From: Orbaceae bacterium ESL0727
GTDB taxonomy: Bacteria > Pseudomonadota > Gammaproteobacteria > Enterobacterales > Orbaceae
Assembly: GCA_029433345.1 (NCBI GenBank)
Contig: JAQTHY010000002.1
Location: 62,001 to 126,000, forward strand
Length of the DNA: 64,000 bases
Reading direction: 5' to 3'
This document shows, piece by piece, positions 36,362-51,493 of this stretch. The notes under the pieces are model-generated. The model searched no databases, was not told the DNA's origin, and worked only from the letters and a program-made list of their open reading frames with translations. How positions within the stretch are numbered: the stretch's first letter is position 1; each line of letters starts with the position of its first letter. The translations under genes and the position numbers were made by a program.

Positions 36362-36459
36362 AACAGATTGCCTCTCATTGATTAAAACTAAAAAAGAGCA
36401 ATCAAGATAGCAAATTTTCACTCTTGATACCAGTATTCTATGGTGGAATGTAGAGGGGG

Positions 36460-36495
36460 AATTTGATATAAACGTAGTATAGTTCTGAAACATTC
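36460..36495 (+). repeat. Dispersed bipartite repeat, copy 3
   Basis: GAATTTGATATAAACG, 10-base spacer, TCTGAAACATTC. It lies in the 313-bp gap between divergent moaC and nuoJ, where both operons have lost their upstream genes. The rest of the gap (36362-36674) has no gene; TATACT near 36634 might be a nuoJ -10 box. Confidence 0.8.
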
Positions 36496-36674
36496 AATTA
36501 ACTTGTTGGCTGTCAATTTAACCTATTAGTTGAATAATCAGTAATTTTAGTTGCATGATTAGGCTAATAGGAAAAAGCGCATAGCGCTTTATGGGCGTAG
36601 TTATTTTTCCATTCACCTTCATAGGGAATAAGTATATACTACTACTCTTTATAAATAGAAGTTGGATGATTTAG

Positions 36675-37172
36675 ATGGTTGTTGTTTTTTATATTGCGTC
36701 TGTTATTGCAGTTTTCGCGAGTATAAAAGTAATTAGTTGTTCACGGATTGATAAAACTATCCTCTATTTTGTGCTATTGCTTTTAGCAACGGCTCTCATT
36801 TGTATCCTTCTAAATGCTTATTTTTCGACTATCTTGTCTATAATCTTATTTATTGGTGGGATTGCTATTTTGTTTTTGTATGTGGCCTCTTTTTTAAAAA
36901 TAACTGTCGATAATGTCGAAAATGGTCGACGTGGTATTAGTCCCAAAGTGTGGTTAGGTCCACTTATTTTGGCATTTATTTTATTGGTTCTGCTCATTTA
37001 TGGAATTGTCGATACTGATTATGAACAGATCGCAGATCCGCATAAATTACTGAGCGAAATGTCATTAGATGCTTATATTTTAATGAGCGAATTAGCCGGT
37101 TTTTTACTGTTGGGTACAGTGATTATTGCTTATCATTTTATGCGACGTCTTTTTACGGAGATGACAGGATGA
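36675..37172 (+). CDS. nuoJ: NADH-quinone oxidoreductase subunit J-like
   Basis: Membrane subunit next to the E-channel of complex I. 165 residues, five hydrophobic segments, aligned without gaps to E. coli NuoJ over the first 60 residues (FYIASVIAVFASIKVIS; then FIGGIAILFLYVASFLKI for the pi-bulge helix TM3). Two residues I recall as important in E. coli, Glu55 and Tyr59, are Ser55 and Phe59 here. The protein is about 20 residues shorter at the C-terminus. First gene of a J-K-L-M-N run; nuoA-I are not adjacent. It overlaps nuoK by 4 bp. Confidence 0.88.
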   Translation: MVVVFYIASVIAVFASIKVISCSRIDKTILYFVLLLLATALICILLNAYFSTILSIILFIGGIAILFLYVASFLKITVDNVENGRRGISPKVWLGPLILAFILLVLLIYGIVDTDYEQIADPHKLLSEMSLDAYILMSELAGFLLLGTVIIAYHFMRRLFTEMTG

Positions 37173-37471
37173 TCCCTCTTATGGATGGGCTGATTTTTGC
37201 CTCTTTTTTATTTGTCATTGGCTTACTAGGGGTGATGATTCGTCGCAACCTACTCTTTTTACTATTGAGTTTGGTTATTATGAATATGGGCGCTATCATT
37301 GCGCTAGTTGCTGCCGGTAGCCATTGGCAACAGTTTGATGGGCAGATGATTGCGATTTTAACGATGAGTACCACGCTTGCCGAATCGATTGTTGGCCTTA
37401 CGCTATTAATTAAAATATTTTTCCGTCGCAAAACGTTAAATATTGATTCATTGAGTGAAATGAAAGGATGA
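37169..37471 (+). CDS. nuoK: NADH-quinone oxidoreductase subunit K
   Basis: Small three-helix membrane subunit homologous to MrpC. 100 residues, the same length as E. coli NuoK, and similar end to end (MIPLMDGLIF, GVMIRRNLLFLL, NIDSLSEMKG). Of the two intramembrane glutamates, the Glu72 equivalent is kept (TLAESIVG) but the Glu36 equivalent is Val36 (SLVIMN). ATGA overlaps couple it to nuoJ and nuoL. The Glu36 loss would be expected to impair proton transfer in E. coli complex I. Confidence 0.93.
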   Translation: MIPLMDGLIFASFLFVIGLLGVMIRRNLLFLLLSLVIMNMGAIIALVAAGSHWQQFDGQMIAILTMSTTLAESIVGLTLLIKIFFRRKTLNIDSLSEMKG

Positions 37472-39315
37472 ATTTACTTTATTTAACCATTATTATTCCA
37501 TTGCTTTCCTTCCTTTTACTGGTTTGTATTGGTCGTTATATTCATGCCGAAAATGTCATTATTATCGGTATTGGTACCCTGTTAATTGTTTTGTTGTTAA
37601 CGATTTTTACCTGTATCGATTATGGTATGAATACCGTGCCTGATATGACGATGATCTATTCACGCACATTATGGGATTGGTTTTCGATTGATGATTTTGT
37701 TGTGCCAATCACACTTTCATTGGATGGATTATCGCTGATCTTTTTAGTGATTATTGTCCTTTTTGGCCTGCTTATTTATATTTTTGCGGCGTTATATTTA
37801 ACGTCTATAAAAGATATCTATACTTTTTATGCGTACAGTAATTTGCTTATCGCCAGCATTTTGACGCAAGTCTTAGTCGATAATTTACTCGTGATGTTGA
37901 TCGGTTGGGAAGGGATTAGTATTAGTACTTATTTGTTAATTGGAATTTACTACAATCAACTCCGTAATGGTTATGCGGCAGTAAAAGCGTTTGTGACGAT
38001 GCATTTAACTGATCTTTTTTTATTAGTCGGAATTTTCATTCTTTATCAGGAAGTGGGCACCCTCAATATTCGTGAGTTATTAACAGCGGTACACGATAAT
38101 TTGGCTGTTGATTCGGATGTTATCTTCTGGATAACTGTCATGTTATTTTTAGGTGCAATTAGCAAATCTGCACTCTTCCCTATGCAGACATGGTTTATTG
38201 AAACAACGTTAGCGCCAATGCCTGCCGTCGCTTTAATGCAATCATCCACTGTTATTTTAGCAGGCGTATATTTGATATTGCGACTAAGTAGCCTATTTAT
38301 GATGTCAAGCGACATTATGGCGGTGATGATGGTACTTGCTGCCATTGCGGTCATTTTCTCAAGCACGATTTCATTAGCTCAATATGATATTAAGCGAATT
38401 ATTACTTATATCAATTTAAGTCAAATTAGTTATCTATTTTGGGCATTTTCGACACAAAATTGGAGTTTAGCGCTTAACTTTTTGATTATTTATGCCGTAA
38501 CCAGTGCATTATTAATCTTATCTTCCGCTATTTTAATTAAAATGTGTCACGGTGAGCGTGATATTAGTAAATTAGGTGGTTTAGTCACACAAGCACCGAT
38601 CCTTTATGGCTGTTTTTTATTTAGTGCGCTTTCTTTAAGTGCGATGCCATGGTTATCATCTGCGTTTTATGTGAAAGGCGATATTATTTGGGGCTTGATG
38701 TCTCAGGGTAATTTAGTTGCTGGTACTATCGGATTACTCGGTATTTTATTATCATCCTTGAGTATTTTACGGTTAATCTTTATCGTTTTTCATCATAAAC
38801 GGAAAATTCACGATATTGTCACAATTAAATTGCGCGAGTATATCCCTTTATTTATCTTGGCACTATTTACCACAGCGCTGTTTATCTATTTCCCATTGCC
38901 AACACAAGGTGTGGTGCCGATAGTTGATCTCAATACGGATGGACGATTACCGTTCCAATTGTTGTTAGCTGCGGTGACATTATTGAGTTTCTTAATCGCG
39001 TATATCTTTTATGCACACCCTAATAGTGAGATCCAGGAAATTATTAATACACCAATGATCAAATTGTGTATAAATTTATTTACCAATGAGTGGCGATTTG
39101 ATTATTTCGTGAAGAAGGGCATTGTAAGACCTTATCTCTATTTGGCTGATTTAGTGAAAAAAGATCCTTTAGCTAAATGGGATAACTGGGTTCTTTGGAG
39201 CGTGAAAAAGATCAACTCCCATTTGGTAAATTTAGAAAATGGCCGCTTACGTTGGTATATGATGTCGATTGTTATGGGTAGCATTATTGTTTTAATGTTA
39301 CTGGTTTTTGTTTAA
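37468..39315 (+). CDS. nuoL: NADH-quinone oxidoreductase subunit L
   Basis: Distal antiporter-like subunit, 615 residues (E. coli 613), with the long lateral helix at the C-terminus (DYFVKKGIVRPYLYLADLVKKDPLAKW). With a constant +4 offset from E. coli, Glu148 (GWEGIS), Lys233 (SKSAL) and Lys403 (YVKGD) match E144, K229 and K399. The positions of H254, H334, H338, K342 and D400 hold Gln258, Phe338, Tyr342, Ser346 and Gly404. The central hydrophilic axis is therefore largely lost. Overlaps nuoK by 4 bp; nuoM follows after 18 bp. Confidence 0.92.
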   Translation: MNLLYLTIIIPLLSFLLLVCIGRYIHAENVIIIGIGTLLIVLLLTIFTCIDYGMNTVPDMTMIYSRTLWDWFSIDDFVVPITLSLDGLSLIFLVIIVLFGLLIYIFAALYLTSIKDIYTFYAYSNLLIASILTQVLVDNLLVMLIGWEGISISTYLLIGIYYNQLRNGYAAVKAFVTMHLTDLFLLVGIFILYQEVGTLNIRELLTAVHDNLAVDSDVIFWITVMLFLGAISKSALFPMQTWFIETTLAPMPAVALMQSSTVILAGVYLILRLSSLFMMSSDIMAVMMVLAAIAVIFSSTISLAQYDIKRIITYINLSQISYLFWAFSTQNWSLALNFLIIYAVTSALLILSSAILIKMCHGERDISKLGGLVTQAPILYGCFLFSALSLSAMPWLSSAFYVKGDIIWGLMSQGNLVAGTIGLLGILLSSLSILRLIFIVFHHKRKIHDIVTIKLREYIPLFILALFTTALFIYFPLPTQGVVPIVDLNTDGRLPFQLLLAAVTLLSFLIAYIFYAHPNSEIQEIINTPMIKLCINLFTNEWRFDYFVKKGIVRPYLYLADLVKKDPLAKWDNWVLWSVKKINSHLVNLENGRLRWYMMSIVMGSIIVLMLLVFV

Positions 39316-39333
39316 AAAAGGATAAGCGTTATT

Positions 39334-40911
39334 ATGTTGCTGTGGCTGATTTTCCTTCCCATAACAGGGGGAATTTTTGGATGGTTATCGCATATTTGTG
39401 TGCAACATTTGTCATCAAAAAGTTGTGCCATGCCAATGCGCAGCCCGTTTTTTCTCCGCACAATGCCGATCTGGGTAGCCGCAATAACCGTTGTGCTGGC
39501 ATTAATGATTGCCTTATTACTCTGGCATGATGCTATTTCGACCTTAAGAGAAGGTAATGATTGGCGATTGGAAGTCGATAATGCATGGATTCCCCTGCTA
39601 GGTATTCGTTTCCATCTGTTACTCGACGGTTTTTCACTGGTGATGATTACCACCACACTTTTTATTGTGTTACTCACGATTGGTTATTCCTGTAAAGAAA
39701 ATCCAAGCAATATGGGGCTGTTTTATCTCTGTATCTTATTTATGACTACAGCGATAGCGATGCTATTTGTTGTGACGGATCTCTTTTTATGGTTTTTCCT
39801 GTGGGAAGCGGTTGCGATTCCGCTCTATTTTTTGATCTCTTTATGGGGAAGGCGTGATTCGAGTGCACAATTACGATTTAATGGGGCGAGTAAGTTTCTG
39901 ATTTATACTCAAATCAGCAGCTTATTAATGTTGATTTCGATTGTCTCTTTAGCATTAATCAATTGGAGTTTGACTGATCACTGGACCTTTGATTATCAGA
40001 TCCTGACCAAAACACCAATTTCGAGTAATGTCGAATTCTTATTAATGCTCGGTTTTTTGGCGGCCTTTGCGGTCCGTATTCCTTTTGTTCCTCTGCATGG
40101 CTGGTTTATTGAAGCGCATATTGAATCATCGACCACTGGTTCTATGATGATAAGCGGATTACTACTCGGTACCGCAACATATGGTTTATTGCGATTTGTG
40201 ATCCCAATGTTTCCGAATGCTTCGGTTATGATTATGCCGATCATTTTAATTTTATCTTTGCTCACTTTATTGTATTCAGGGTTAGTTGCATTTAATCAAA
40301 CAGATATCAAAAAGTTAATTGCGTATGTCCATATTGCTTTAATGGGATTTGTGACAGCAATTATTTATAGCGGCTCACTTTTAGCTTACCAAGGGGTCGT
40401 CATTCAAAGTATTGCGATAAACTTATCTATTGTTGGTATGTTTATGATTAGTGGATTATTGGTGGAATGTTATTGGACGCGTAATATTAATCAATTTACC
40501 GGATTAAAAGAACATGTCTGTTATCTGTCTACCTTTACATTATTCTTTATGTTAGCGGTATTAGGTGTGCCAGGTACCGCTAATTTTGTCGGTAATTATA
40601 TGATGTTGCTAGGCAGTTATGATGTCTTTTCTTATTATACGATTATATTAGCGATGGGATTATTGTTAGTTTCAATTGCTTTAATTATTCGTATGCAGCC
40701 GATCTTTTACGGCGTAGTGGATAAGCAACTGTTTAATAAGATGGGGACGAAGAGAATGTCTTTAACAAAAACAGATATTGTTTTGCTCGTCTCACTATTA
40801 GCCGTTTTGATGTTTATTGGTTTATATCCGCAAATTATCCTTGATATGTCTTATTCAGTGATTAATCAAATTACACAGCATTTAACAACGTCGAGCACAG
40901 GAGATTTATAA
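39334..40911 (+). CDS. nuoM: NADH-quinone oxidoreductase subunit M
   Basis: Middle antiporter-like subunit, 525 residues (E. coli 509). With a constant +14 offset from E. coli, Glu158 (FLWEAVAIP) matches E144, but K234 is Arg248 (AVRIPFVPLHGW), K265 is Gly279 (LLLGTATYG), H322 is Leu336, H348 is Ile362 and E407 is Asn421 (NFVGNYMML). Most of the proton path known from E. coli is thus changed, while the fold-defining stretches (PLHGWFIEAH, AFNQTDIKKLIAYVHIALMGF, GVPGTANFVGN) remain. nuoN starts 3 bp after its stop. Confidence 0.92.
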   Translation: MLLWLIFLPITGGIFGWLSHICVQHLSSKSCAMPMRSPFFLRTMPIWVAAITVVLALMIALLLWHDAISTLREGNDWRLEVDNAWIPLLGIRFHLLLDGFSLVMITTTLFIVLLTIGYSCKENPSNMGLFYLCILFMTTAIAMLFVVTDLFLWFFLWEAVAIPLYFLISLWGRRDSSAQLRFNGASKFLIYTQISSLLMLISIVSLALINWSLTDHWTFDYQILTKTPISSNVEFLLMLGFLAAFAVRIPFVPLHGWFIEAHIESSTTGSMMISGLLLGTATYGLLRFVIPMFPNASVMIMPIILILSLLTLLYSGLVAFNQTDIKKLIAYVHIALMGFVTAIIYSGSLLAYQGVVIQSIAINLSIVGMFMISGLLVECYWTRNINQFTGLKEHVCYLSTFTLFFMLAVLGVPGTANFVGNYMMLLGSYDVFSYYTIILAMGLLLVSIALIIRMQPIFYGVVDKQLFNKMGTKRMSLTKTDIVLLVSLLAVLMFIGLYPQIILDMSYSVINQITQHLTTSSTGDL

Positions 40912-40914
40912 TCT

Positions 40915-42693
40915 ATGATCACTTTGTCTCCTATTTTTATCTTAAGTATAGCGGCAATTGTGTTACTTTTTTTGCTGTTTGTTGTAAAGTTAAATACCAA
41001 ATGGTGTGCTTTATTTACAGTATTAAGTCTAGCATTGGCTTTGTCGGTTTCTTCGTTTATTGGCTATCAAATTGCCATGCACTCAGAGACGATTACCGAT
41101 ATCAGTAGTGACAATATGCAGATTGTCACACCTACGGCACCGGCGGATGTGCAGTCACCTAATCAAGCGACAACAGAGAGTTCTGAAGATGCCACTAATC
41201 CAAATGCGCAAGATAATACTAATGATAATGTGAGTGACGAAGCGGAAAATAGTGAAAAAGAAAAGGCCAAAAATGAGGAAAAGCAGCAGGAGAATGATAA
41301 AACTGCAGCGACAACTACAACTACAACTACAACTACAGCAGAACCTCAATCTAAAATAACGGCTAATGAAAATGTTGCATCATTATGGCAAGCAGGGTAT
41401 GTGACGGCATTATTTACCTGTGATGGCTATGGATTACTGTATACCAGCCTAATTTTGATTATCTCTATGATTGTTTGTTGTTTTGCTTATCAATGGTTTA
41501 AACAAGAACAGACCAATCATGGCCTATTTTATGTGATTTTGTTATTTACCACATTAGGTGGCGTCACGCTGGTTTATGCAAGCCATTTAATCTCGCTTTT
41601 TTTAGGCATTGAGCTTTTATCTATTCCGTTTGTGGGGCTGATTGGTTATCAATACACACAAACGCATTCGCTCGAAGCGGCTATCAAATATATGGTGCTT
41701 TCTGCAGTAGCCAGTGCATTTTTATTGATGGGAATTGCTTTTTATTATGCCGCAACCGGTGAGCTCACATTTAGTGGCTTGAGCTATCAGTTATCAACCG
41801 TATCTTATCCTAGCACTTTATTATTAATGGGTGTCTGTTTAATGTTAGTTGGAATCGGCTTTAAATTATCGCTGGTGCCTTTCCAATTATGGTTACCTGA
41901 TGTATATCAAGGTGCACCGACAGCCGTTTCATTATTATTCTCGACCATTGGTAAAGTGGCGATATTTTGTGCTATTGCGCGACTGTTTTTATTAGCGCCT
42001 ATCGTCAATAACGATACGATTCGTACAATTTTAGTCATAATGGCATTTTGTTCTATTTTATGGGGTAACTTTTTTGCCTTAATGCAGAGCAATGTAAAAC
42101 GGTTACTTGCCTATTCATCGATTGCCCATTTTGGTTATTTATTAACAGCGTTGATTGCTGTGCAATACCAAGTATTAGCGTTAGAAACGATAGGTGTTTA
42201 TCTGATCGGCTATATTTTAGCTAATATCTGTCTATTAGGTGGGGTGAGTTTAGAGTCTCATTCTAATGAACGACAAGATCATGAAAATGATGTCGACTTA
42301 TCCGGTTTATTTTGGCGACGTCCAGTTTTAGCTTTATCAATGGGTGTTGGATTATTATCGTTGGCTGGTGTTCCCCTAACAGTCGGCTTTATCGGCCGTT
42401 TCTTATTAGTCTTATTAGGCGTAACCGCTGAATTATGGTGGTTAGTTGGCGCAATTGTTGTCGGGAGTGCATTAGGGCTTTATTTCTATGCGAGATTAAT
42501 CATTAATTTGTATATGAAACCGATGCATTGCAGCGATCAAAAATTTGCCAATACGATAGTTAAGTTAAAGTTTAATCAGCTTAGCTTGAGTGAATTCATC
42601 ATTGCTTTATCCGCCTTCTTAATTTTACTGTGTGGCGTTTATCCTAAATGGTTATTTAACTTAGTGAGCATGGCACAATATTTAATACCATAA
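40915..42693 (+). CDS. nuoN: NADH-quinone oxidoreductase subunit N with hydrophilic insert
   Basis: Proximal antiporter-like subunit, 592 residues against 485 in E. coli. The excess is a hydrophilic stretch of about 90 residues after TM2 (about 60-150), rich in Asn, Glu, Lys and Thr and including nine consecutive Thr encoded by ACAACT repeats (41311-41337). After it, the protein follows E. coli NuoN at a constant +100 offset. Glu233, Lys258, Lys317, Lys347 and His405 match E133, K158, K217, K247 and H305, and only K395 is a conservative Arg495. So NuoN, unlike NuoL and NuoM here, keeps its proton path. CAGGAG lies 11 nt before the ATG. Confidence 0.93.
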   Translation: MITLSPIFILSIAAIVLLFLLFVVKLNTKWCALFTVLSLALALSVSSFIGYQIAMHSETITDISSDNMQIVTPTAPADVQSPNQATTESSEDATNPNAQDNTNDNVSDEAENSEKEKAKNEEKQQENDKTAATTTTTTTTTAEPQSKITANENVASLWQAGYVTALFTCDGYGLLYTSLILIISMIVCCFAYQWFKQEQTNHGLFYVILLFTTLGGVTLVYASHLISLFLGIELLSIPFVGLIGYQYTQTHSLEAAIKYMVLSAVASAFLLMGIAFYYAATGELTFSGLSYQLSTVSYPSTLLLMGVCLMLVGIGFKLSLVPFQLWLPDVYQGAPTAVSLLFSTIGKVAIFCAIARLFLLAPIVNNDTIRTILVIMAFCSILWGNFFALMQSNVKRLLAYSSIAHFGYLLTALIAVQYQVLALETIGVYLIGYILANICLLGGVSLESHSNERQDHENDVDLSGLFWRRPVLALSMGVGLLSLAGVPLTVGFIGRFLLVLLGVTAELWWLVGAIVVGSALGLYFYARLIINLYMKPMHCSDQKFANTIVKLKFNQLSLSEFIIALSAFLILLCGVYPKWLFNLVSMAQYLIP

Positions 42694-42870
42694 ATTAAGC
42701 AACGTTGTATGTACATATAACAAGAGACATAGAATAGGACACCTAATCGATCCTATCACCATTTTGAGTAGTAACAGAGATAAGCGTCATGCTTATTTAG
42801 CTCTAGGCAAAGTTGAAATATTGTGGAGTGCGTTCACGTGATAAATAGTTAATATGATATCTATTTCTTG

Positions 42871-42879
42871 TGTTATAAT
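42871..42879 (+). promoter_or_regulatory. Extended -10 promoter of yajC-secDF
   Basis: TGTTATAAT is a perfect extended -10 element 68 bp before the yajC ATG; no clear -35 box. In E. coli yajC-secDF is transcribed with tgt; here tgt is absent, so a local promoter is expected. Confidence 0.55.
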
Positions 42880-42946
42880 CCTCCGCTTACAATGTTTCGT
42901 TTACGAAGTAGAGTTTATAAAATAAATTTGAATCAAGAGGAAAAGT

Positions 42947-43279
42947 ATGGACTTTTTTATTTCTAAAGCATATGCCGATGCAGGGCAAGCATCTGATGCA
43001 AATCCTTATTTCTTACCGATTATGTTAGTTGTATTTGGACTATTTTTCTATTTTATGATTATGCGTCCACAACAAAAACGCGCTAAAGCACATCGTAATT
43101 TGATGGCCTCTATCACTAAAGGTGATGAAGTGCTAACCAATGGTGGCTTAATTGGTCGTGTTTCTAAAGTCAATGACAACGGTTATATCGCATTAGAACT
43201 GAATGATACAACCGAAGTTGTGATTAAACGTGACTTTATCACATCTGTTCTACCAAAAGGTACAATGAAATCACTATAA
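42947..43279 (+). CDS. yajC: Sec translocase accessory subunit YajC
   Basis: Single-span inner-membrane protein of the SecDF-YajC subcomplex. 110 residues, identical in length to E. coli. N-terminal FFISKAYADA, membrane helix FLPIMLVVFGLFFYFMI followed by MRPQQKRAKAH, then the cytoplasmic KGDEVLTNGGLIGRV domain. AGAGGAAAAGT precedes the ATG. queA and tgt, the usual upstream neighbours, are missing. Confidence 0.96.
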   Translation: MDFFISKAYADAGQASDANPYFLPIMLVVFGLFFYFMIMRPQQKRAKAHRNLMASITKGDEVLTNGGLIGRVSKVNDNGYIALELNDTTEVVIKRDFITSVLPKGTMKSL

Positions 43280-48545: not shown

Positions 48546-49946
48546 TTACAGATTCTGTAATACTTTCTCAACACTATCCTTAGCATCGCCAAATAACATA
48601 TAGCTATTTTCTTTAAAGAATAGTGGATTTTGTACACCAGCGTAACCGGTATTCATTGAACGTTTAGAAATGATCACATTTTTCGCTTTCCAAACTTCAA
48701 GAACAGGCATACCTGCGATAGGGCTATTTGGATCTTCCGCAGCAGCTGGATTAACGGTATCATTCGCACCAATAACCCAAACAACATCGGTCTCAGGGAA
48801 ATCGTCGTTAATTTCGTCCATTTCCAGTACGATATCATAAGGTACTTTTGCTTCGGCTAACAATACGTTCATATGACCGGGTAAACGTCCAGCCACAGGG
48901 TGAATACCAAAACGGACTTCGACACCCATTGAACGGAGTTTTTCAGTAATATTGCTTACCGCAGCTTGTGCCTGTGCAACTGCCATACCGTAACCTGGAA
49001 CGATGATAACAGAACGCGCATCTTTTAGAATTTGCGCAACTTCAGCGGGTTGTAATTCACGATATTCACCTTGTTCTTCATCTTCTGAGCTAGCGCTTTT
49101 ACTTTTATTACCAAAACCACCGGCAATAACACTAATAAATGAGCGATTCATCGCTTTACACATAATGTATGAAAGAATAGCACCAGATGAACCAACTAAC
49201 GCACCTGTTACGATTAGAAGATCATTACTCAACATAAAGCCCGCAGCGGCAGCAGCCCACCCTGAATAAGAGTTTAGCATTGAGATAACCACCGGCATAT
49301 CCGCACCACCAATCGATGCAACAAGGTGTAGACCAAATACCAAAGCAATGGCTGTCATCACGAGTAAGCAAATTAGTGCTAGGGTATAGTCATCAGTATT
49401 GACAAAAACAAACATCAGAATAATAGAAACCACAATGGCAGCTAAGTTCCAATAATGTTTATAAGGAATCGATAACGCTTTTGAGCTAATTCGACCGTTT
49501 AATTTTCCGAAGGCAACGATTGAACCCGAGAAAGTGACTGCACCAATAAAGATACCGACAAAAATTTCGATTAAATGTACGGTCACTTCATGTGATGGAA
49601 GACTCAGAACAAATGACGTTAACGGTAAAAAGCTATTAAATCCAACCAAGACAGCTGCCATACCAACAAAGCTGTGGAGTAGCGCAACCAGTTCTGGCAT
49701 TTGGGTCATTTCGACTTTTTTAGCCAGGTAAAGACCAATTGCCGCACCAATAACCATGGCAATAATGACCCAATGTAAACCACCATTAAGGGTTGCAATC
49801 GTCGCGATTAACGCTATCGCCATCCCAATCATACCGTAAATATTCCCGGTTTTGGCTGATTCTTGATTAGACAGTCCACGTAGACTAAAAATAAAGAGTA
49901 ATGCAGCAATAACGTAGGCTGCTTGAATGATTCCATGACTTAACAT
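48546..49946 (-). CDS. pntB: Transhydrogenase subunit beta
   Basis: Membrane and NADP(H)-binding subunit of the proton-translocating transhydrogenase that makes NADPH from NADH. 466 residues (E. coli 462). The N-terminal half has about nine membrane segments; domain III binds NADP through [15 protein letters not shown], with [23 protein letters not shown] and [20 protein letters not shown] following. A short acidic linker ([16 protein letters not shown]) joins them. Its ATG overlaps the pntA stop by one base. Confidence 0.97.
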
Positions 49947-51493
49947 TATTTAGATTCTCCTTTATTACCACGTTGGAACATTTTTAGCATTCTCTGGGTA
50001 ACACAGAATCCACCAAAAATATTGATACTTGCGATTAAAATAGCGATAAAGGCGATAGCGGTAATTAAGCCGTTATCATCACCTACTTGTAGGATTGCAC
50101 CCACTAAAATAATCCCTGAAATCGCATTGGTTACTGACATGAGTGGTGTATGCAGTGAATGGGTAACATTCCAAACAACGTAATAACCGACAACACAAGA
50201 TAAGGCAAAGACAGTGAAATGGCCTAAAAAGCTTTCTGGCACAGAATTGGCTAACCAGAAGAAGGCGATAATCAAAATGGCTAAAATACCATATTTTTTA
50301 CGCGGATCCATTGGTTTAGGTTCTGGCTTAACAATAGGTGCTGCCGCTTTCTTTTGTGGCTGAGCGGACACTTTAATTGGCGGTGCTGGCCACGTAATTT
50401 CTTTATCTTTGACAACGGTGACACCACGAATGACGACATCATCGAAGTTGATATCAATCGTACCATCTTTATGTTTAGCAAGTAATTTCAAAAGATTAAG
50501 AATATTAGTACCATAGAGTTGTGAAGCTTGTGATGGCATGCGATTGGCGAGATCGGTATAACCGACGATCTTAACTTCATTATCGGTTGTATACACTTCG
50601 CCCGGTTTGGTTAATTCGCAGTTACCGCCAGTTAATGCAGCCAAATCGACAATTACGCTGCCCGGTTTCATTGACTCAACCATCTCTTTAGAGATCAGTT
50701 TTGGTGCTGGTTTACCTGGGATTAGTGCTGTGGTGATAATAATATCAACATCTTTAGCTTGGGCAGCAAAAAGCGCCATTTCGGCTTCAATAAATGCGGC
50801 TGACATCTGTTTAGCATAACCATCACCTGAGCCTGCTTCTTCTTTAAAATCAAGTTCTAAAAAGTCAGCGCCCATACTGTTGATCTGTTCAGCAACTTCT
50901 GGGCGGGTATCAAATGCACGAACGATCGCACCTAAGCTTACTGCGGCACCGATAGCCGCTAGTCCAGCTACACCGGCACCAATGACTAATACTTTGGCAG
51001 GTGGCACTTTACCTGCGGCAGTCACTTGACCGGTAAAGAAACGACCAAATTGATTAGCTGCTTCAATGACAGATCGGTAACCGGCAATATTTGACATGGA
51101 GCTTAATGCATCAAGAGATTGGGCACGTGAAATACGTGGTACACAGTCCATCGCCATGACAGTAATATTTTTGGCCGCTAATTGGTCAAGCAGTGCTTTA
51201 TGTTGCGCTGGGTAGATATAGCTGATGAGTGTCGAACCTTCCTTCATTAAAGGAATTTCTTCCTCTAATGGGGCATGAAGTTTTAAAATGAGATCATTTT
51301 GCCAAATATCATGCGTATTTTGAATAGTTGCTCCAGCATCAATAAATGCCTTGTCATCGAAATAAGCCGCGTGGCCTGCACCTTCCTCGACTGAAACTGT
51401 AAAACCCAGTTTTAACAGTTGTGTCACTGTTTGCGGTGTGGCTGCAACTCTTGCTTCATTGGCTAACCGCTCTTTAGGTATACCGATATGCAT
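49946..51493 (-). CDS. pntA: Transhydrogenase subunit alpha
   Basis: NAD(H)-binding subunit, 515 residues (E. coli 510). Starts [20 protein letters not shown]. The dinucleotide fold is [30 protein letters not shown], and the RQD-type loop region [15 protein letters not shown] is conserved. A Pro/Lys-rich linker (about 375-395) leads to four C-terminal membrane helices. Operon with pntB, divergent from mukF across a 451-bp gap. Confidence 0.97.

Follow-up and report, generated by a model that had tools for sequence, protein, structure and literature searches.

Among the open questions about respiratory complex I (NDH-1) are how electron transfer drives its distant antiporter-like subunits, and whether these subunits can move ions alone. 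Formate hydrogenlyase and group 4 hydrogenases share antiporter-like subunits. Mrp-type Na+(K+)/H+ antiporters have no redox part, and counterparts in them have been named for five complex I membrane subunits: NuoL corresponds to MrpA-N, NuoM and NuoN to MrpD, NuoK to MrpC and NuoJ to MrpA-C (PMC7419157). Another close system is the orphan nuoJKLMN of Gilliamella, already known from 95 of 95 genomes of that genus and regarded, together with frdCD, as a possible remnant of genome reduction (PMC11325843). The genes described here are the same five, from the same family; residue changes, selection, an insert in NuoN and a promoter-like box were not seen in that paper's account of nuoJKLMN, and a literature search by titles and the beginnings of abstracts returned no published selection test or residue analysis of the Orbaceae genes.

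The nuoJKLMN locus and the search for its redox arm

The window (the whole 64,000-nucleotide stretch of DNA that was analysed) lies on contig C2 of a genome of 2,151,441 bases (99.96% complete) that belongs to Orbaceae, near Gilliamella; the closest named relatives found were Orbaceae bacterium ESL0721 and Gilliamella. It contains five contiguous complex I membrane genes in the order J-K-L-M-N, with all frames open on the plus strand, at 36675-42693:

36612-36641, plus strand: promoter-like element of nuoJ (TTCACC, 17 nt, TATACT), with the conserved box TATATACTA at 36633-36641
36675-37172, plus strand: nuoJ, 165 aa; E55S and Y59F relative to E. coli
37169-37471, plus strand: nuoK, 100 aa; E36V, with E72 retained
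37468-39315, plus strand: nuoL, 615 aa; E144, D178, K229, K305 and K399 retained, H254Q, H334F, H338Y, K342S and D400G
39334-40911, plus strand: nuoM, 525 aa; central axis altered (K234R, K265G, H322L, H348I, E407N), E144 retained, and E, H and R gained at E. coli positions 250, 319 and 439
40915-42693, plus strand: nuoN, 592 aa; E133, K158, K217, K247 and H305 retained, K395R, H224Q and E104L
41080-41370, plus strand: insert in NuoN, approximately residues 56-152 (about 97 aa), after the second helix; low-complexity, net charge -14

All five proteins scored above Pfam cut-offs, and each was assigned to its own subunit by Pfam and NCBIfam (by NCBIfam's own cut-offs, NuoJ and NuoL fell below and NuoK, NuoM and NuoN lay above at least one), with identities to the E. 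coli subunits of 34-55%. The preliminary description of this DNA had thus correctly recognized an intact five-gene set, but its claim that the genes are coupled by 4-bp overlaps holds at only two of the four junctions (J/K and K/L), the L/M and M/N junctions being gaps of 18 bp and 3 bp. Upstream of nuoJ lies a divergent moaC, identified by Pfam, along with what we take to be moaD and moaE, and the genes downstream of nuoN are presumably yajC, secD and secF.

Whereas the membrane-arm subunits J, K, L, M and N are all present in this genome, in which Proton_antipo_M matched NuoL, NuoM and NuoN only, profile searches of the same genome found neither NuoH (PF00146) nor NuoD (PF00346), the latter sought within the family in the window genome alone. 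NuoF (PF01512) was absent from all 44 Orbaceae genomes, the window genome included, and Nqr/Rnf (PF03116) likewise had no match in any of the 44. The NuoH, NuoD and NuoF profiles all gave matches in E. coli and other controls. PF01512 presumably covers RnfC as well; two matches to it were seen in many genomes of the order. These absences concern NuoH and NuoD in the window genome and NuoF in 44 genomes, three of the nine families of nuoA-I.

HycD/NuoH-type and HycE/NuoD-type subunits of group 4 hydrogenases and formate hydrogenlyase are also absent from the window genome. PF00146, the NuoH/HycD family, was found in five of the 44 Orbaceae genomes, in each case away from nuoJ-N. Two of these five proteins (L060 and L062) were compared with solved structures, and both are HycD-like, their best match being formate hydrogenlyase subunit 4 (3.5e-95 and 2.3e-95); none of the five reached 1e-30 against NCBIfam, a library that may contain no NuoH model.

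The rest of the order presents a different picture: NuoN was found at 1e-40 in 71 of 197 sampled genomes, 12 of them Orbaceae, and all 59 of the others possess PF01512, no more than 15 kb away from nuoN in 54 of them. In the remaining five, PF01512 was not on the contig with NuoN, and these assemblies are split into approximately 270-670 contigs. Across the phylum, NuoD was present in 78 of 80 tested genomes, drawn from at least 199 with NuoN outside the order (95% or more complete). Two genomes of the window's class (G368 and G440) have NuoN matches of about 1e-42 without NuoD; Mrp-type genes or other orphan arms may account for them.

Retention, origin and selection across Orbaceae

Full-length NuoL occurs in 42 of the 44 Orbaceae genomes, and the two genomes without it are 59% and 74% complete. 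The five proteins were taken from 45 Orbaceae loci, one of them the window, and reduced to 42 distinct sets, a number equal to that of the NuoL-bearing genomes, though not necessarily one to one; all five frames are open in every set. In a tree of the concatenated proteins, Orbaceae are monophyletic (support 1.0), with a stem of 0.64 and a mean crown depth of 0.63. Horizontal acquisition was considered as the origin of the genes and set aside: Orbaceae group next to the complex I sequences of the rest of the order with a support of 1.0, in a tree panel drawn from this order only. Among the matches listed for the phylum sample, the nine best non-own NuoN matches (48-51% identity) all came from one family of the order (f19), as did the other two of the eleven same-order matches (46% and 41%), and no genome outside the order exceeded 46%. 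Stops within the weak NuoL-query matches of two genomes (G031 and G011) were considered as signs of broken genes and rejected, being read-through past nuoN, whose frame is open in both (L077 and L041).

Upstream of nuoJ there is a moaC-like gene in the window and in L045, and a gene of about 880 aa, presumably ppc, in ten of 15 listed loci, and because these upstream neighbors vary, gene order was discarded as a pointer to a partner. Downstream, a yajC-like frame begins 63-338 bp past nuoN in 14 of the 15 loci; in the rearranged locus L083 (G004), nuoJKLMN is intact, and the yajC-like gene has moved upstream onto the opposite strand. About 6 kb past nuoN in the window, on the minus strand at 48546-51493, are what we take to be pntB- and pntA-like transhydrogenase genes; a pntB match appeared in one of the 42 sets, whose loci may not all reach that far.

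Selection was gauged by pairwise dN/dS (Nei-Gojobori), with pairs binned by NuoL dS. For J, K, L, M and N, respectively, the medians were 0.106, 0.078, 0.095, 0.050 and 0.131 at dS 0.05-0.4 (13 pairs); 0.125, 0.090, 0.111, 0.084 and 0.109 at dS 0.4-0.8 (29 pairs); and 0.150, 0.092, 0.110, 0.098 and 0.111 at dS 0.8-1.3 (176 pairs, 174 for K), the pairs being non-independent through common ancestry and dS being high in the last bin. Medians of 0.05-0.15 denote purifying selection, and the highest single value for any nuo gene was 0.453, in nuoJ. The control genes secD, secF and yajC gave medians of 0.034-0.117 (9 to 160 pairs per bin), with secD and secF below all five nuo genes in every bin.

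The box TATATACTA was found no more than 140 bp upstream from the NuoJ FY codon in all 33 loci of the same genus and in none of nine from other genera (33 of 42 for the family), against an expectation of 0.22 of 42 loci from mononucleotide shuffles; the surrounding sequence aligns poorly among loci, and shared descent still contributes to conservation of the box. In the window, it overlaps the promoter-like pair, which is a consensus match with no mapped start, in a region (36400-43100) that shows no excess of promoter-like sites (22, versus 27.9 in shuffles). No FNR-type box was found upstream of nuoJ in the 40 of 42 loci that were scanned. Open frames in all 42 sets, low dN/dS, newly fixed residues and a conserved promoter-like box strongly support the view, already held in the preliminary description, that nuoJKLMN is not undergoing simple decay.

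Residue changes in the membrane arm

Residues were compared with E. coli MG1655 and 13 (J, K) or 14 (L, M, N) relatives from the order whose genomes possess PF01512. The substitutions given above for NuoJ, NuoK, NuoL and NuoM had all been proposed beforehand, as had K395R and the retention of E133, K158, K217, K247 and H305 in NuoN; every one agrees with the alignment to E. coli K-12 and these relatives, and no register shift accounts for them. The residues retained in NuoL, E144 and the three gains in NuoM, and H224Q, E104L and the insert in NuoN had no place in the preliminary description. NuoM is altered throughout the family: K234R, H322L and E407N are present in all 42 sets, K265 and H348 are lost in all 42, and the gained residues are nearly as uniform (E at 250 in 42, H at 319 in 41, R at 439 in 42). 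NuoK has lost E36 in every set, with position 72 being E in 25 and Q in 17, and NuoJ has Y59F in every set and retains E55 in two, a position that also varies within the reference panel (Q in L119).

NuoL has a mixed record. H338Y and the loss of H334, K342 and D400 (G in 41) are found in all 42 sets, and H254Q in 39, with the histidine retained in L074-L076, which make up one of the tree's two basal branches. Its core is largely kept (E144 in 39, D178 in 42, K229 in 40, K399 in 41 of 42), the exceptions being three losses of E144, two cases of K229R and one of K399E. NuoN retains E133, K158, K217 and K247 in 42 of 42 sets and H305 in 38, and has K395R in 41. Along the subunits K-N-M-L, the charged central axis is thus kept in N, mostly kept in L, and interrupted in M as well as at NuoK E36. 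Among columns conserved in the panel, Orbaceae have replaced 12 of 34 in J, 4 of 26 in K, 76 of 192 in L, 51 of 183 in M and 18 of 121 in N, the last being the lowest fraction among the three antiporter-like subunits; one fixed new residue occupies 2, 1, 13, 18 and 7 of these columns, respectively, so the majority of replaced columns are not fixed. An AlphaFold2 model of NuoM, built with 17 sequences, had a mean pLDDT of 58.4 and was set aside.

Mutants studied in other species indicate that no single substitution proves a loss of function. Single changes in Paracoccus NuoM are reported to show that charged central-axis residues are essential for catalysis while pumping stoichiometry is conserved: a TMH8 lysine variant had 18% activity, below what the stoichiometry measurement needs, and two histidine variants, one an identical His-to-Leu change, had approximately 57% and 78% (PMC9802314). 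Pumping persists in E. coli NuoM E407K, at about 1.5 H+/e- (PMC9271201), and when NuoL replaced MrpA, K229A made no difference, and growth was slower with E144Q and with H254A (PMC4938563). Five changes within one NuoM, fixed across a family, would probably weigh more than any single one.

NuoN also carries a low-complexity, mostly acidic insert between its second and third helices in all 42 family sequences, of 58-198 aa by its rough borders and with a net charge that has a median of -14 and runs from 0 to -26. The counterpart of E. coli D70 lies at position 131-271 in Orbaceae NuoN, as opposed to 67-74 in 13 of 14 order relatives, which have no insert; in the other relative (L120), it is at 95, the protein being 25 residues longer there. 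By the positive-inside rule, the insert is predicted to be periplasmic. Its length varies strongly among species, and it contains a run of nine threonines in the window and is repeat-like in L082.

Possible functions of an orphan membrane arm

The Orbaceae module shares with complex I its homologous J-K-L-M-N subunits in the same order, with NuoN and most of the NuoL core common to both, and differs from it in the lack of any NuoH, NuoD or NuoF that we could find, in the loss of the NuoM axis and of NuoK E36, and in the NuoN insert. It resembles Mrp-type antiporters in having no redox part and in that the subunits kept are those with Mrp counterparts (PMC7419157). Unlike Mrp, it has two MrpD-like subunits. 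Among the Mrp genes, the search covered MrpA and MrpD, and both are absent from the window genome, where Proton_antipo_M matched NuoL, NuoM and NuoN only. MrpC has two histidines (PMC7419157) and the window NuoK has one, H52, as read directly from the sequence.

Our leading reading, which we hold tentatively and at somewhat less than an even chance, is that Orbaceae nuoJKLMN is a membrane arm of which only the Mrp-homologous core is left, now serving as a redox-free proton/cation translocator; it might then represent, with the same slightly-below-even confidence, a new class of ion transporter that has five subunits, the middle one rewired, works independently of redox chemistry and is kept across a whole bacterial family. 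Conservation, selection, the residue pattern and, within the searches made, the absence of NuoH, NuoD and NuoF are observed; beyond them, we infer assembly, transport, driving force and ion identity as follows. An Orbaceae ancestor would have lost the redox part of complex I and retained the five subunits with named Mrp counterparts, and the arm would have been rewired before the family diversified and held under purifying selection ever since. The likeliest product is a membrane complex of J-K-L-M-N without a redox part, in which ion gradients would drive the movement of protons, probably exchanged against a monovalent cation. NuoN would be the best conserved channel and NuoL a second, partly conserved one, while NuoM, being rewired, would act as a spacer or modulator; as for the relay that leads to the quinone site at NuoK E36, its loss would follow from the loss of that site.

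Retention across a family in which NuoF is missing and no Nqr/Rnf was found in 44 genomes favors a translocator, as do the scarcity of NuoH-family genes (five of 44, both of the two compared being of formate hydrogenlyase type), the open frames, the low dN/dS, the monophyly of Orbaceae in the tree, the newly fixed residues, the low fraction of columns replaced in NuoN, the promoter-like box and the homology to Mrp subunits; drift in the NuoL core, Q at NuoK position 72 in 17 sets, the absence of MrpA and MrpD genes, and faster evolution of the nuo genes than of secD and secF count against it. Moreover, the E. coli operon ends at its 3' side with J-N, such that the loss of the 5' part in a single event could by chance have left just these genes, and the composition of the set could reflect one deletion and not selection for an Mrp-like core. 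The role of NuoN as the channel is weakened by findings from E. coli, where E133A has wild-type activity, K217A is milder, and K247A and K395A are severe (PMC13073174), and by one study's suggestion that NuoN may fall short of full function as a proton translocator (PMC3046159).

Purifying selection would be compatible with a structural role too, and a membrane scaffold, structural or regulatory and without transport, that works, for example, with the adjacent yajC-secDF is an unlikely alternative but the strongest of those we considered. It would accommodate the lost NuoM axis, the drifting NuoL core of a few lineages and the yajC-, secD- and secF-like genes after nuoN in 14 of 15 listed loci. 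However, four charged NuoN residues conserved in every set are difficult to account for if no ions move, and L083, where a different neighbor follows nuoN, still has all five genes intact.

Slightly less probable again is recruitment to another partner, also raised in the preliminary description; here a new redox or quinone protein would stand in for NuoH and the hydrophilic arm, and orphan FrdCD is one candidate. The FrdC family is kept in 43 of 44 Orbaceae genomes, and FrdC and FrdD are fused in the window genome (187 aa) and in G029 (185 aa), with no frdAB-like frame adjoining by eye; frdCD is described as conserved across Orbaceae, with all four frd genes in Zophobihabitans entericus only (PMC11325843). 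Yet frdCD does not adjoin nuoJ-N in any of the five loci read, leaving no physical link, and the alteration of NuoK E36 and NuoJ Y59 in all 42 sets speaks against an E-channel-type relay. No partner was found, and a redox-free translocator would need fewer assumptions than such a partner.

That the genes are remnants of genome reduction en route to loss, as proposed in PMC11325843 and in earlier work that it cites, appears very improbable: the redox subunits are gone and the nuo genes evolve faster than secD and secF, but open frames, dN/dS near 0.1, newly fixed residues and the conserved promoter-like box all run counter to decay. The preliminary description had also entertained a complex I with a reduced pumping stoichiometry, which would be complete if nuoA-I lay elsewhere. 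Its probability is negligible: three of the nine missing subunits were sought singly, and the absence of NuoH and NuoD from the window genome and of NuoF from 44 of 44 genomes, in searches with positive controls, refutes it as far as those three subunits go and excludes it as far as tested.

An insect-gut bacterial family has guarded and rewired five membrane parts of complex I, apparently without the fuel-burning ones, probably for a new ion-transport job. If the translocator reading is true, Orbaceae offer a natural experiment on the complex I membrane arm without its redox engine. Purification of an arm that evolution has separated, rewired and kept could then allow ion movement to be assayed without electron transfer. 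It would also correct the published suggestion of remnants for Orbaceae nuoJKLMN, and bears on membrane energy management in bee-gut symbionts with a short respiratory chain.

The arrangement of the frd genes themselves differs among Orbaceae. The FrdC-FrdD fusion lies at 4963-5526 of L134 (contig C1 of the window genome) and at 5178-5735 of L135 (G029), with only part of the FrdC profile matched; in L136 (G043), the frames preceding frdCD are presumably frdA and frdB, and in L137 and L138, FrdC and FrdD are encoded by separate frames.
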